Below, piece after piece: positions 57,788-63,357 of a DNA stretch of 64,000 bases. A model generated the notes under the pieces. That model was not told the origin of the DNA and did no database searches. It worked only from the letters and a program-made list of their open reading frames with translations. The position numbers and the translations under genes were made by a program. Source of the DNA: Longispora fulva (lineage in GTDB: Bacteria > Actinomycetota > Actinomycetes > Mycobacteriales > Micromonosporaceae); the NCBI RefSeq assembly GCF_015751905.1, contig NZ_JADOUF010000001.1, positions 5,208,001 through 5,272,000 of the forward strand. Reading direction: 5' to 3'. The stretch's first letter is position 1; the number at the start of each line of letters is the position of its first letter.

Positions 57788-58453
57788 CTAGCCCAGCGCC
57801 CGCGCCACGGCCGTCCGCAGCGCCGGCAGCTTCGCGTACAGCGCGTCGCCCGGGCAGTCCGTCGAGTTGTAGTCGCGGTGTCCCTTGATCGCGGTCCTCG
57901 GATCCAGCTTGTACTGGTCGCACAGGTACGCGCACAGCTGCACCAGCGCGTTCCACTGCGCCGTCGGCGGCAGCACCGACATGTACGTGCCCTCGTTCTC
58001 GATCCCGATCGTGTGGTCGTTGTGCCCGGACACCTGCGCGCCCTGCACCAGCTTGTGCTGGCCGATCGAGGGCAGCACCTTGTCCCGGCCCTCCATCAGA
58101 TGCCCGCCGCGCGAGGTGGTGAAGTGCTGGCCGACGTCGTCCCAGCCGTTGGTGTCCATGTGGTGGTTCTGGATCGACTTCGACAGCGCCTTCGCGTGGG
58201 CCACGGAGTAGTCCGTGCTGTTCGGGGTGTCGGTGTGGTGCACGATGATCCGGTCCGGCTTGCGGTTGAGGACAGTGATCGGGTGCTTCGGGGCCCGGGC
58301 GCCCCACTGGGCCCGGGTCAGGATGGTGGGCCTCGCCACGGCTTCGGCGGCCCCGGCGGCCTCGGCGGTGCCGACGACCAGCAGTCCGCTGGCGGCCACA
58401 GCGAGACCCGCTCCGGCGTACTGGAGAAGTGCGCGTCGGGAGATGTCAGTCAT
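57788..58453 (-). CDS. Secreted N-acetylmuramoyl-L-alanine amidase (amidase_2/PGRP)
   Basis: Protein of 221 aa. N-terminus SRRALLQYAGAGLAVAASGLLVVGTAEAA resembles a Tat-type signal. The zinc amidase has IIVHHTDTPNS, the GGHLMEGR strand and GHRDYNSTDCPGD, with the zinc His/Cys positions. It cleaves the amide between muramic acid and the stem peptide. ATG at 58453. Upstream lie 11-base-spaced repeats for the SARP. Confidence 0.92.
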   Translation of the reverse strand: MTDISRRALLQYAGAGLAVAASGLLVVGTAEAAGAAEAVARPTILTRAQWGARAPKHPITVLNRKPDRIIVHHTDTPNSTDYSVAHAKALSKSIQNHHMDTNGWDDVGQHFTTSRGGHLMEGRDKVLPSIGQHKLVQGAQVSGHNDHTIGIENEGTYMSVLPPTAQWNALVQLCAYLCDQYKLDPRTAIKGHRDYNSTDCPGDALYAKLPALRTAVARALG

Positions 58454-58475
58454 GGCCCGAAAGGTAGGAGCGGGC

Positions 58476-58495
58476 GCTGAACGTCGGCTGAACGT
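58476..58495 (-). promoter_or_regulatory. 11-bp-spaced direct repeats upstream of the amidase gene
   Basis: ACGTTCAGC (minus strand) occurs twice, 58495-58487 and 58484-58476, with period 11. SARP proteins bind direct repeats with 11-bp spacing, so this is a candidate site for the adjacent SARP. Confidence 0.55.
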
Positions 58496-58637
58496 ACCGC
58501 GCGTGCCGTAACCGTTTCCGCGCCTACCGCACTGGTATGACCTGAATGATCAACCCCGCGCGGGATTCGGCCGACCCCGGACGCCCGTAGTGTCCGGTTC
58601 GACATTCAGGACGTGCGCGAGCCGGAGTGGGGTCACA

Positions 58638-61600
58638 GTGGATGTTCGGATGCTCGGCCCCTTCGAGCTGGTGTCCCCGGCCGGCACGCTCGCGCTCGGC
58701 GGGCCCCGCCGCAGGGCCACGATGGCACTGCTGGCCGTGCGGGCCGGCACCGTCGTCTCCGTCGACCAGATCATCGACGGCGTGTGGGGCGACACCGCGC
58801 CGCCCGGCGTCCGCAACCAGATCCAGGTGTACGTCTCCGCCCTGCGCGGCCTCCTCACCGGCCAGGGCGAGTCCCGCGACCTGATCCAGACCCACCCGGG
58901 CGGCTACCTGTTCCGGCCCCGGCGGGACGCCGTCGACCTGCGGCTGTTCGAGGACCGGGTGACCGACGCCGACGGCGCGCTGGCCCGGGGCCGGCTCACG
59001 GAGGCTGGTGGCCTGCTCCGGGAGGCGCTCGCGCTGTGGCGGGGACCGGCGCTCGGCGGGGTCACCGGACGGTTCGCCGAGACCGAGGCCGCCCGGCTCG
59101 CCGAGCGCCGGATCGCCGTGATCGAGCAGCGCCTCGACATCGACCTGGCGCTCGGCCGGCACCCGGCGCTGGTGGCGGAGCTGGTGAACCTGGTCGACGA
59201 GTACCCGTTGCGGGAGGTGTTGCGGGCCCGGCTGATGCTCGCCCTCTACCTCGGCGACCGCACGGCCGAGGCGCTGTCCGTGTACCGCGACGCCCGGGCC
59301 ACGCTCGTCGAGGAGCTGGGCATCGAGCCCGGTACCCGGCTCCGCGAGCTGGAACAGGCCATCCTGCGCGGCGACCGGCCGGCGGTGCTCGCCGAGCGCT
59401 GGCTGTCCGACGCGCGGCTGTCGGCCCCGGCGCCGGCCCCCGCCCCGGCCGTCGCTGGCCGGGCCGCCCACCTGCCGGCGGACCTCGCCGAGTTCGTGGG
59501 CCGGCACGCCGAGATCTCCGCCGCCGTCGCGACCCTGTCCGGCACCGGCCCCGCGCCGGCGACCCTGGTCATCGTGGGCCAGCCGGGGATGGGCAAGACG
59601 TCGCTGGCGGTGCACCTCGGGCACCGGGTCCGCGACCAGTTCCCCGACGGCCAGCTGTACGTGAACCTGCGCGGCCCGCAGGGCGACCCGGAGACCGTGC
59701 TCGGCTCCTTCCTCCGCGCGCTCGGCCGCACCGGCCCGCTCCCCGACAACCTGGCCGAACGCAGCGCGCTGTACCGGTCGGCGCTGGCCGACCAGCGGAT
59801 CCTCGTGGTCCTCGACGACGCGGCGTCCGAGCGGCAGGTCCGGCCGCTGCTCCCCGGCAGCGGCACGTGCGCGGTCCTGGTGACCAGCCGGGCGAACCTG
59901 GCCGGCCTGGGCACCCACCGGCTCGTCCTGGAACCGCTGGGCGAGGAGTACGCGCTGACCCTGCTCGCCGGCGTCGTCGGCCGCGACCGGGTGACCGCGG
60001 AACTCGACGCGGCCGGGGAGATCGTGCACCTGTGCGGGTACCTGCCGCTGGCGGTGCAGATCGCGGCCATGCGGCTGTCCACCCGGCCGCACTGGAGCCT
60101 GGAGCGGCTGGCCAGGGCGCTGCGCGACGAGCACCGCCGGCTCGACGAGCTGGCCGTCGGCGACCTGGAGCTGCGGGCCAGCCTGGCGCTCAGCTACGAC
60201 GGGCTGCCGGCCGCCGCCCGGGTCGGGTTCCGCCGCCTCGGCCTGGTCGGGGCGGCCGACGTGCCGTCCTGGGTGGTGGCGGCGCTGCTCGACGTGGGCC
60301 CGGAGGATGCCGACGACGTGCTGGACGAGCTGGTGGACGTGCACCTGCTGGAGCCGCACCCCGGGCAGCCGGACGGCTCGGTGCGCTACCGGATGCACGA
60401 CCTGCCCCGGCTGTACGCCAGGGAGCGCGCCGAGGCCGAGGATCCCGCCGAGGTCCGGCTGGCGGCGGTGCGCCGGGTGTTCGACGCGTACCTCGACATC
60501 GCCGGGCGGGCCAACGCGGCCCTGGCCAGCGACTTCGTCGGCGCCCCTCCCCCGTCCGCCCCGCGCTGGGCGTTGCCGGACGGCCTGGCCGAGGAGCTGT
60601 GCGCCGCCCCGCTGGACTGGTTCGAGACCGAACGCGCCTCGATCGTCAGCGCGGTCGGGCAGGCCGTGGAGCTGGGCGACGCCGCCACCGCGGGAGGGCT
60701 CGCCGCGGCGTCGGCAACGTTCTTCGAGGTGCGCAACTACTTCGACGACTGGCAGCGCACCCACCGGGCGGCGCTGGACCTGTGCGCCGCGCGGGGGGAC
60801 GCCCTGACCGCCGTGCCGCTGCGCCGCAACCTCGGCGAACTGCACACCATCCAGGACAACTACGACCTGGCCGTCGAGCACTTCAGCACGGCCCTGGTCG
60901 ACGCGCGCGCCCTCGGCCTCACCGGGCAGGAGGCCGCTTGCCTGGCCGGGCTGGGCTACCTGCGCCGGGTGCTGGGCCAGTACGCCGCGGCCACGGAGGC
61001 GTTCACCGAGGCGGCCAGGCTGGGTCGCGAGCTGCGCAACCCCGCATGCGAGGTGTACGCGACCCTCGGCCTCGGCGTGATCTGCCGCGAGACCGGCCGG
61101 GCGGCCGAGAGCACCGCGCACTACGAGCACGGCCGGACGTTGAGCCTGGCCAGCGCGTACCGGCCCGGCGAGGCCCAGGCCCTGCGCGGCCTCGGACTCC
61201 TGGCTCTCGACCGCGACGCCCTCGACGAGGCCGAGGAACACCTGGCCGCCGCCCGGGACATCCACGTCGGCTCCGGTGACCGGCTCGGCCAGGCGCACGC
61301 CCTGCTCTGGCTCGCCGAGATCCGGATCCGCCGGGGCGCGCTGCCCGCCGGCGAGACCATGCTCGCCTGGTGCCTGCTCGTGTACCGCGAACACGACAAC
61401 GCGTTCGGCCAGGCCCTGACGCTGCGCCGGCTCGGGTCGGCGCACCTGACCGGGGGCAGGGTCGACTCGGCCCGGGGCGCGCTGACCGAGGCGGTGCGGA
61501 TCTGGCGGCGGCTGCGGTCCCCGTACTGGCTCGCGGACTCCCTCGACGTGCTGGTGGCGGTGGAGGACCGGCGCGGCGACGAAGCCGCGGCGAACTCCGC

Positions 61601-61670
61601 CAGGCAGGAGGCCCGCCGGCTGCGCGCCGGACTGCGGACCGAGGCCGCCGTCGCCGCCGGGGTGCGCTGA
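58638..61670 (+). CDS. AfsR-type SARP regulator with NB-ARC and TPR domains
   Basis: Protein of 1010 aa from GTG 58638. N-terminal OmpR-like winged helix (MLGPFELVSPAGTLALGGPRRR ... YVSALRGLL), then BTAD (LFEDRV ... LYLGDRTAEALSVYRDARATLVEELGIEPG), an NB-ARC ATPase (Walker A VGQPGMGKTS, LVVLDDAASERQV), and about 350 residues of TPR-like repeats (ALGLTGQEAACLAGLGYLRRVLGQYAAATEAFTEAA). It is a large AfsR-like activator; no biosynthetic cluster is visible beside it. It stands between two peptidoglycan hydrolase genes that carry 11-base repeats. Confidence 0.93.
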   Translation: MDVRMLGPFELVSPAGTLALGGPRRRATMALLAVRAGTVVSVDQIIDGVWGDTAPPGVRNQIQVYVSALRGLLTGQGESRDLIQTHPGGYLFRPRRDAVDLRLFEDRVTDADGALARGRLTEAGGLLREALALWRGPALGGVTGRFAETEAARLAERRIAVIEQRLDIDLALGRHPALVAELVNLVDEYPLREVLRARLMLALYLGDRTAEALSVYRDARATLVEELGIEPGTRLRELEQAILRGDRPAVLAERWLSDARLSAPAPAPAPAVAGRAAHLPADLAEFVGRHAEISAAVATLSGTGPAPATLVIVGQPGMGKTSLAVHLGHRVRDQFPDGQLYVNLRGPQGDPETVLGSFLRALGRTGPLPDNLAERSALYRSALADQRILVVLDDAASERQVRPLLPGSGTCAVLVTSRANLAGLGTHRLVLEPLGEEYALTLLAGVVGRDRVTAELDAAGEIVHLCGYLPLAVQIAAMRLSTRPHWSLERLARALRDEHRRLDELAVGDLELRASLALSYDGLPAAARVGFRRLGLVGAADVPSWVVAALLDVGPEDADDVLDELVDVHLLEPHPGQPDGSVRYRMHDLPRLYARERAEAEDPAEVRLAAVRRVFDAYLDIAGRANAALASDFVGAPPPSAPRWALPDGLAEELCAAPLDWFETERASIVSAVGQAVELGDAATAGGLAAASATFFEVRNYFDDWQRTHRAALDLCAARGDALTAVPLRRNLGELHTIQDNYDLAVEHFSTALVDARALGLTGQEAACLAGLGYLRRVLGQYAAATEAFTEAARLGRELRNPACEVYATLGLGVICRETGRAAESTAHYEHGRTLSLASAYRPGEAQALRGLGLLALDRDALDEAEEHLAAARDIHVGSGDRLGQAHALLWLAEIRIRRGALPAGETMLAWCLLVYREHDNAFGQALTLRRLGSAHLTGGRVDSARGALTEAVRIWRRLRSPYWLADSLDVLVAVEDRRGDEAAANSARQEARRLRAGLRTEAAVAAGVR

Positions 61671-61680
61671 ACGTCGCGCG

Positions 61681-61707
61681 GTCAGCCGTCGTTCAGTGTC
61701 CGATCAG
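61681..61707 (+). promoter_or_regulatory. 11-bp-spaced repeats upstream of the NlpC/P60-like gene
   Basis: TCAG at 61682, 61693 and 61704, each preceded by GT or GA, gives three direct repeats with an exact 11-base period, 52-78 bases before the start at 61759. The orientation relative to the gene matches the amidase site at 58476-58495. Confidence 0.5.
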
Positions 61708-61758
61708 GACCGTCGACCAGGGTGGTCATCGACACAGCGACCCACCTTGGAGGACGTC

Positions 61759-62328
61759 ATGATCCGCAAGACCCTCACCTCGCTCGCCCTGATCGGGGTC
61801 ACCGGCGCGGCGATCGCCGTCGCCAGCTTCGGCGGCGCGGCCTACGCCTCGCCCACCACCGAGGCGATCCCGGGCGTCGAGAACGCCTCGATCCTCGTAG
61901 CCTGCACGTCCAACGGCGCGGACGAGACCCACACCGGCGCCCAGATCCTGGCCCGGGGCAAGCTGTGGATCACGGAGAAGGTGCCGTACAGCCAGACCAA
62001 CTGCCACAAGAACGTCAACGGCACCTACCGCCAGGACTGCTCCGGCTTCGTCTCGATGGCCTGGGGCCTGAAGGACTCGCACTGGACCGGCAACATCCTC
62101 GACGTGTCGAAGAAGATCTCGAAGAGCAGCATGAAGCCGGGCGACGCGTTCTGGGTGCACAACTCCTCGCACCAGCACATGGGCCTGTTCGTGAAGTGGG
62201 TCGGCGCGGCCGGCGGCGCGGCGATCGTCTACGAGGAGAGCAGCTCCGGCACCAACGCCCACCAGAGCACGTGGAGCGCGAGCCGGGTCGCGGAGTTCAC
62301 CGCCCTGCGCTACAACCACTTCCACTAG
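61759..62328 (+). CDS. Secreted NlpC/P60-like hydrolase
   Basis: Protein of 189 aa. The signal peptide (TLTSLALIGVTGAAIAVASFGGAAYA) is cut near residue 31. The NlpC/P60-like core has YRQDCSGFVSMAWGL (nucleophile Cys), HMGLFVKW (His) and a third polar residue in the following strand. Peptidoglycan stem-peptide cleavage is likely. ATG at 61759 has GGAGG at 61749. Confidence 0.8.
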   Translation: MIRKTLTSLALIGVTGAAIAVASFGGAAYASPTTEAIPGVENASILVACTSNGADETHTGAQILARGKLWITEKVPYSQTNCHKNVNGTYRQDCSGFVSMAWGLKDSHWTGNILDVSKKISKSSMKPGDAFWVHNSSHQHMGLFVKWVGAAGGAAIVYEESSSGTNAHQSTWSASRVAEFTALRYNHFH

Positions 62329-63305: not shown

Positions 63306-63330
63306 TTAAGCAGATCACCACTTCTGCTAA
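63306..63330. promoter_or_regulatory. LysR-type operator between divergent genes
   Basis: TTAAGCAGA and TCTGCTAA form an imperfect inverted repeat 63306-63330, AT-rich, in the 71-base gap between LysR and the epimerase-like gene; it fits the T-N11-A layout. Confidence 0.4.
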
Positions 63331-63357
63331 TCACCCTAGCGGGGCAGGCTGACCGGC

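Follow-up and report, generated by a model that had tools for sequence, protein, structure and literature searches.

SARPs were named for antibiotic clusters and are used in finding them, and the SARP-like regulator EmbR of Mycobacterium tuberculosis has the emb genes as its targets. AfsR of Streptomyces coelicolor has the domain order winged helix-BTAD-NB-ARC-TPR, which is also the order in the SARP analysed here, but the AfsR target is the pleiotropic regulator gene afsS, whereas the putative targets here are adjacent secreted hydrolases. The afs box in the afsS promoter is described as two 11-bp repeats that span -40 to -19, TTCAGC occupying -38 to -33 (PMC10936776), and the AfsR unit is given as CGTT(T/C)ATCGNN (PMC10972967), which is close to the CGTTCAG(C/T)NNN of the hydrolase boxes described below. 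EmbR, presented as a SARP relative linked to the cell envelope (PMC9239209), has a SARP-like fold in common with our protein (2fez, E=8.5e-38) but carries an FHA domain where the latter has NB-ARC/TPR. A third comparison is with the PHO box/PhoP of actinomycetes, which also consists of 11-bp direct repeats of GTTCA type.

The window, i.e., the whole 64,000-nucleotide stretch of Longispora fulva DNA that was analysed, contains a large SARP gene between two genes for predicted peptidoglycan hydrolases. This arrangement, proposed in the earlier note, is borne out by the gene calls and by Amidase_2 and NlpC/P60 domains that score above their cut-offs. The features of the locus are as follows.

57788..58453, minus strand: Amidase_2 gene, predicted secreted N-acetylmuramoyl-L-alanine amidase (PF01510, E=2e-22, and translation)
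58461..58466, minus strand: -10-like hexamer TACCTT of the amidase promoter (by eye; within the genome-wide pattern match)
58473..58494, minus strand: putative amidase SARP box, two 11-bp units CGTTCAGCCGA CGTTCAGCGCC (layout matched genome-wide)
58638..61670, plus strand: gene for the large, AfsR-type SARP (domain profiles and AfsR alignment)
58809..58847, plus strand: SARP recognition helix VRNQIQVYVSALR (residue numbering from the AfsR comparison)
61679..61711, plus strand: putative NlpC/P60 SARP box, three 11-bp units CGGTCAGCCGT CGTTCAGTGTC CGATCAGGACC (last two units matched genome-wide)
61718..61723, plus strand: -10-like hexamer CAGGGT of the NlpC/P60 promoter (by eye; within the genome-wide pattern match)
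61759..62328, plus strand: NlpC/P60-type peptidase gene, product predicted secreted (PF00877 domain)

The SARP, whose GTG start was picked from likeness to the congener ortholog, has an OmpR-type winged helix (Trans_reg_C, PF00486, 1e-9) followed by BTAD (PF03704, 1e-43), and its C-terminal part contains NB-ARC (PF00931, 4.7e-12) and TPR (PF13424, 3.7e-18) domains. It matches the AfsR structure 8k60 with E=2.6e-124 in an alignment spanning residues 5-722. The base-contacting T88 and R92 of AfsR are not kept: a gapless alignment of the helices has V and A in their place. The AfsR paper (PMC10936776) counts T88, but not R92, among the highly conserved contacts, so the mismatch bears on an AfsR-like reading of the site and not on SARP membership. 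The Amidase_2 domain of the 57788-58453 product scores 80.3 bits against a family cut-off of 26, and by eye the N-terminus of this protein resembles a twin-arginine signal. PF00877 passes narrowly in the NlpC/P60 product (24.6 bits against 23), where Cys94 and His140 are invariant across nine aligned relatives. Both products are predicted to be muralytic.

Both hydrolase promoters contain 11-bp direct repeats directly upstream of a -10-like hexamer, and each set points to its own gene; the earlier note had described the repeats and their common orientation to the genes. The amidase promoter has GTTCAGCCGACGTTCAG at 58477-58493 on the minus strand, with the unit occurring twice at period 11, and the NlpC/P60 promoter has GGTCAGCCGTCGTTCAGTGTCCGATCAG at 61680-61707 on the plus strand, with TCAG exactly 11 bases apart at 61682, 61693 and 61704. 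TACCTT lies 6 bp past the amidase box and 7 bp ahead of the ATG, and the amidase mRNA is possibly leaderless. CAGGGT also sits 6 bp past its box but fits the -10 consensus poorly. The layout common to the two promoters, 11-bp TTCAG-type units at equal distance to the -10-like hexamer, can be written as TTCAG-N6-WTCA-N11-YANNNT. The gap from TTCAGC to the -10 element is 20 bp both here and at afsS, if the afsS -10 is placed at -12 to -7, which is an assumed placement. The amidase box is about 145 bp upstream of the SARP start, and inspection by eye of the sequence before that start revealed no repeat pair at AfsR spacing that would suggest autoregulation.

TTCAG-N6-WTCA-N11-YANNNT occurs in the 8.68-Mb genome only in the two hydrolase promoters, although the pattern with its -10-like hexamer is post hoc, having been written after four sites were known. 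Exact GTTCAGN5GTTCAG has two matches in the genome and none in the reversed control; the other match overlaps the start of a hisD-like gene (named by eye). Six matches with up to 2 mismatches are present in the window, which is unremarkable as a count because 8 of 100 shuffles (mean 2.9) also reach six, but the three with 0-1 mismatch all fall in the two hydrolase promoters. Relaxing the pattern to GTTCAGN{5,6}GTTCAG gives matches in 16 of 16 genomes, mainly at a 12-bp period, and the remaining matches in the own genome are two inside called genes and one at the hisD-like start; this relaxed pattern is useful solely for the array before the congener amidase gene.

Since the CGTTCA unit is common to PhoP and SARP-type sites, and AfsR and PhoP are described as binding overlapping sequences in Streptomyces (PMC10936776, PMC10972967), the repeats could instead be read by PhoP or a different response regulator of the OmpR family, with the SARP as a bystander or co-user. 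We regard this as quite unlikely. Repeats before pstS-like genes in this genome and that of the congener (L231 and L232, named by eye) read GTTCAC-N5-GTTCAY, and the hydrolase units fail to match them, having G/A at the position of the C; in both genomes PHO-like units before pstS-like genes are GTTCAC/GTTCAT and the hydrolase units GTTCAG-type. GTTCAG pairs are found beside the SARP and at one to three scattered places, but nowhere else in the two genomes. The association of helix and repeat word described below is also unexpected under PhoP, the response regulator that this comparison covers.

The comparison within the genus was made with one congener genome. The SARP ortholog there has 62% overall identity and yet the same VRNQIQVYVSALR helix, and the adjoining hydrolase genes code for SLT-Amidase_2 and CHAP proteins, both predicted secreted. 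Four GTTCAG copies are located upstream of the amidase gene and a CTTCAG/CTTCAA pair upstream of the CHAP gene. Hence repeats, whose presence at orthologous loci the earlier note had made its touchstone, precede both hydrolase genes in this congener. The strict pattern of box and -10 has two matches in its genome, both at the SARP-adjacent hydrolase genes; a second exact 11-bp GTTCAG pair (C13:25538) is intergenic, both flanking called genes being on the opposite strand. In named genomes, the SARP query matched two distant loci, at 38% and 32%.

The congener SARP also adjoins a biosynthetic cluster with ketosynthase and AMP-binding genes (two of each) and genes for a carrier protein and an HPPD-family enzyme, together with those for an FMN-dependent dehydrogenase and an aminotransferase. 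The SARP might accordingly control chiefly an antibiotic cluster that is lost or elsewhere in our organism, with the hydrolases as accessories, e.g., for self-protection. We consider this unlikely, though less so than PhoP control, as in the 27-kb congener stretch no box with up to 2 mismatches precedes any called gene but the two hydrolases, and reading the gene calls by eye we saw no biosynthetic genes within about 20 kb on either side of our SARP locus. The earlier claim that such genes are absent nearby fits these gene calls but does not hold at the congener locus.

We also surveyed promoters for period and spacing. The 11-bp period as the sole test was dropped, because lag 11 also peaks in NlpC promoters without a SARP: 7 of 22 SARP-adjacent NlpC promoters show it, as do 9 of 35 that have no SARP beside them and 46 of 290 promoters of other genes. 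As period 11 alone was too weak, repeat plus spacing was used in its place, giving 9/24, 6/40 and, for other genes, 24/524; the 24 exclude L129 (a wrong 63-aa gene) from an initial 25, and one NlpC match (G003, second-ranked) that has no called gene was not counted. In the own genome, box plus -10 precedes 22 of 95 large-SARP neighbours versus 18 of 308, and the enrichment persists without the SARP-hydrolase locus (20/93, p=3e-5), but this survey does not sharply resolve the spacing, since shifting the spacing by one or two bases gives counts that are nearly as large (17, 22, 20 and 18 of 95). With many promoters and many SARPs on offer, and a weak signal from the period alone, the repeats could be a chance occurrence; this is very improbable, given that the sites are rare and reversed controls give 0 matches, that the congener has kept the layout, and that helix and word are associated.

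The recognition helix associates with the repeat word across 90 large SARPs, in which we counted pairs at lag 11 with up to 2 mismatches in a neighbour's promoter. GTTCAG-like pairs accompany 6 of 7 RNQ-helix SARPs (the one without being L081) and 2 of 82 other large SARPs; L073_9, whose neighbour is common to L073_6, was left out, and L077 was moved by hand to those with repeats, as its I36 gene had escaped the gene finder, the remaining SARPs keeping their script assignment. The association holds without the two founders (4/5, p=3e-5) and at one per genus (2/3, p=0.005). Outside this count of seven, L246/L267 has the helix RNQIHVYVRGIR in a 265-aa SARP, with no GTTCAG pair at 0-1 mismatch within 1.5 kb. 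Among the best matches listed in the last family search, 28 loci were screened by script, with a crude extraction that missed the helix in many of them, and five stretches were retrieved. Members of the same SARP clade in two further genera adjoin I36-type secreted genes with similar repeats; the clade tree contains 62 of the 90 large SARPs, of length 850-1200, with the weaker own-genome ones omitted.

Another SARP in the cell might read the boxes, either an AfsR-like paralog or, in the congener, its second SARP. The own genome has 67 BTAD places, the hydrolase unit resembles that of AfsR, and the congener CHAP gene is placed between two SARPs. But the ortholog is the only SARP common to both loci and alone there has the RNQ helix, the congener's second SARP having a different one, and the rarity of the sites argues for a local reader; this possibility is about as improbable as PhoP control, if not slightly more so.

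Overall, the SARP is likely a local transcriptional activator of both adjoining hydrolase genes, judging from two promoters that are alike and have no other match in the genome, two congener matches only at SARP-adjacent hydrolases, the helix-word association, the AfsR/afsS-like layout and the box enrichment near large SARPs. Together with its two hydrolase genes, the SARP, as a variant of a known regulator type, probably makes up a genuine local regulatory module, and the box-bearing promoters together with the arrangement kept in the congener suggest that the SARP probably turns on cell-wall enzymes. Two protomers would sit side by side on two 11-bp repeats (unit approximately CGTTCAGNNNN), as is reported for AfsR, and with the repeats ending 6 bp ahead of the -10, they would bring RNA polymerase to promoters that lack a good -35. 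This step would be gated, via nucleotide and some signal, by the NB-ARC/TPR part. Both predicted secreted hydrolases would then be expressed jointly, the amidase releasing stem peptides from glycan and the NlpC/P60 peptidase cutting inside the stem peptides.

The earlier proposal that the SARP is devoted to wall hydrolases rather than antibiotics agrees with the two strict boxes per genome, all at hydrolases, but its exclusivity is weakened by the cluster bordering the congener SARP, by the RNQ SARP without repeats, and by targets that are not always hydrolases, as with the I36-type neighbours in two other genera. We tentatively suggest, at somewhat less than even confidence, that many large SARPs of this actinomycete family are, rather than antibiotic regulators, multiplied local switches for one or two adjacent targets, secreted and often wall-active (NlpC/P60, amidase, CHAP, I36), with an NB-ARC/TPR sensor, in which helix and 11-bp word are co-inherited while targets are exchanged, and which here would serve muralytic release on an envelope or predation signal. 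The link between helix and word makes SARP target prediction testable. Should some of the large SARPs control secreted wall enzymes, cluster mining guided by SARPs would be partly misled, and a route leading from an intracellular NB-ARC/TPR sensor to the hydrolysis of peptidoglycan would be open to testing.

The window's genome is a single contig of 8.68 Mb, of which the window takes up bases 5,208,001-5,272,000. Gene calls and domain searches gave the following arrangement around the SARP:

57788-58453, minus strand: secreted Amidase_2 gene
58638-61670, plus strand: SARP, 1010 residues
61759-62328, plus strand: secreted NlpC/P60 gene
after the NlpC/P60 gene: LysR regulator gene

The SARP has winged helix, BTAD, NB-ARC and TPR domains, and the sequence of the solved AfsR structure aligns with it at E=2.6e-124. 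By eye, the amidase N-terminus resembles a Tat signal and that of the NlpC protein a Sec signal; nine aligned sequences all retain Cys94 and His140 of the latter.

The repeats that the earlier note had located in both hydrolase promoters were borne out on inspection of the sequence, and one layout is common to the two: TTCAGC-N5-TTCAGC-N9-TACCTT before the amidase gene and TTCAGT-N5-ATCAGG-N9-CAGGGT before the NlpC gene, the latter with an extra third unit upstream of the other two. In the passage of PMC10936776 that describes the afsS promoter, two 11-bp repeats span -40 to -19, with TTCAGC at -38 to -33 and CACTGT as the -10 hexamer; the spacing equals that of the hydrolase promoters if this hexamer lies at -12 to -7, a position that we assumed and that is absent from the passage. 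The AfsR unit in the review text consulted (PMC10972967) is CGTT(T/C)ATCGNN, whereas the unit at this locus is approximately CGTTCAG(C/T)NNN. The base-contacting T88 and R92 of AfsR are replaced by V and A in our SARP, and the detailed reading of the site thus differs from that of AfsR. A two-mismatch relative of the box lies at window positions 63306-63337, where the LysR gene and the next gene diverge, and may simply be a LysR site.

The genus comparison comprised one further genome (G040), whose SARP ortholog has 62% identity. There, an SLT-Amidase_2 gene precedes the SARP, a divergent CHAP gene adjoins the amidase, and a second, distant SARP lies beyond. The amidase promoter contains four GTTCAG copies at spacings of 12, 12 and 11, the CHAP promoter CTTCAG/CTTCAA at 11, and both end in the N5/N9 layout, preceding CAGGCT and CAGATT, respectively. 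The pattern TTCAGN6WTCAN11YAN3T, derived from the four sites themselves (two per genome), has four matches in both genomes together, namely its source sites, and its reversed control has none. Matching the sources is by construction; the informative part is the absence of other sites in the two genomes.

Such repeats could also be read as PHO boxes bound by PhoP, but the GTTCAC-N5-GTTCAY repeats preceding pstS-like genes in both genomes differ from GTTCAG in the sixth base, which makes this a poor reading of the hydrolase repeats; sites common to PhoP and the SARP are possible. The 11-bp repeats before the pstS-like genes (L231, L232) are themselves probably PHO boxes. An antibiotic role, which the earlier note had set aside for the SARP, gains some ground from the congener, where the SARP locus borders this cluster:

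G040:C13:587000-614000 (loci L265, L073): two ketosynthases, two AMP-binding enzymes, carrier protein, HPPD-family enzyme, FMN-dependent dehydrogenase, aminotransferase

The cluster resembles hydroxyphenylglycine supply and might lead to a hydroxyphenylglycine-type product. However, among the called genes of this stretch, none besides the two hydrolase genes is preceded by a box with up to two mismatches.

The two orthologs share the recognition helix VRNQIQVYVSALR, from which that of the congener's second SARP differs. The fetched loci yielded 90 large SARPs, for which promoters of genes up to two places away were scored by their match to a pair of GTTCAG units at lag 11. The two founders scored best (0 mismatches), followed by L083 (1), and two mismatches were found for L074, L075 and the non-RNQ SARPs L079_3 and L092_4. 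L083, L074 and L075, from two other genera, are RNQ[IV]QVY[VI]S SARPs; the RNQ SARP L081 (helix RNQLQGYVS) has no GTTCAG-type pair in its neighbouring promoters. Repeats thus accompany 6/7 RNQ SARPs vs 2/82 others (p=3e-7), counting L077, which was added by hand because the automatic gene calls lacked the neighbouring gene; the RNQ figure is 4/5 without the founders (p=3e-5) and 2/3 with one SARP per genus (p=0.005). A tree of 62 SARPs places the seven RNQ SARPs in a single group (SH-aLRT 91, under the usual 95). Their neighbours in the two other genera are Inhibitor_I36-type genes (L074 and L083 by domain scan, L075 and L077 by likeness), with GTTCAGC, GTCAGC and TACAGC among the promoter units and CAGTCT or CACGCT as hexamers. 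Because the repeats stand before I36-type genes there, recognition helix and repeat word seem, from these comparisons, to have stayed together across genera while the target was exchanged. At L189, as at L074 and L083, a secreted Inhibitor_I36-type gene with a SARP-type box adjoins a large SARP.

SARPs also lie close to hydrolase genes more widely. Among the 69 NlpC matches listed from 150 family genomes (query excluded), 25 lie no more than two genes from a SARP, one of these being assigned the wrong gene, and 17 directly adjoin one. As a baseline from the window's genome, 4.6% of random places have a BTAD gene at most 3.5 kb away. In that genome, 5/18 NlpC/Amidase_2/CHAP places lie within this distance (expected 0.83; reached in 3/5000 circular shifts), two of the five being this locus and one other amidase being convergent with its SARP; limits of 2 and 5 kb gave 2/18 (523/5000) and 5/18 (31/5000). 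Box-like sites in the window's genome precede 22/95 direct large-SARP neighbours vs 18/308 other genes (p=6e-6), or 20/93 neighbours without this locus (p=3e-5), in a survey where the gene finder gave 64 BTAD genes vs 67 BTAD places by search; at lags 9, 10, 12 and 13, 5, 4, 7 and 5 of the neighbours score. The other fetched loci, many selected for an NlpC gene, gave 20/73 vs 24/524. A crude signal-peptide test was positive for 27/95 neighbours vs 57/308 others in the own genome.

Elsewhere in that genome, a CHAP gene is divergent from a SARP (L180:4046-8349), a CHAP-type gene is close to another (L225:9000-14243) and an Amidase_2 gene is convergent with a third (L205:5747-8852). In L112, L113 and L114, from three genera, large SARPs are divergent from NlpC-type genes whose promoters have GTACGG-type units repeated about every 11 bp; by eye, these SARPs start with an XRE-like helix-turn-helix, and the winged helix follows it. 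Small NlpC-type genes adjoining SARPs in L138, L141 and L155 have near-perfect GTACGGG repeats, 11 bp apart, in the region upstream. The SARP-adjacent NlpC-type proteins of L088, L090 and L091 (other genera), whose NlpC part was identified by sequence search and not Pfam, have FG-GAP repeats in the C-terminal part.

No SARP governing peptidoglycan hydrolases was found in the titles and abstract openings of the best matches of an open-licence full-text search, and the words cell wall and peptidoglycan are absent from the consulted text of the SARP review (PMC10972967). Our best reading of the sequence is that the SARP is quite probably a locally acting AfsR-type switch for the two peptidoglycan hydrolases, with putative binding and activation. 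It would be a variation on an already known regulator type.
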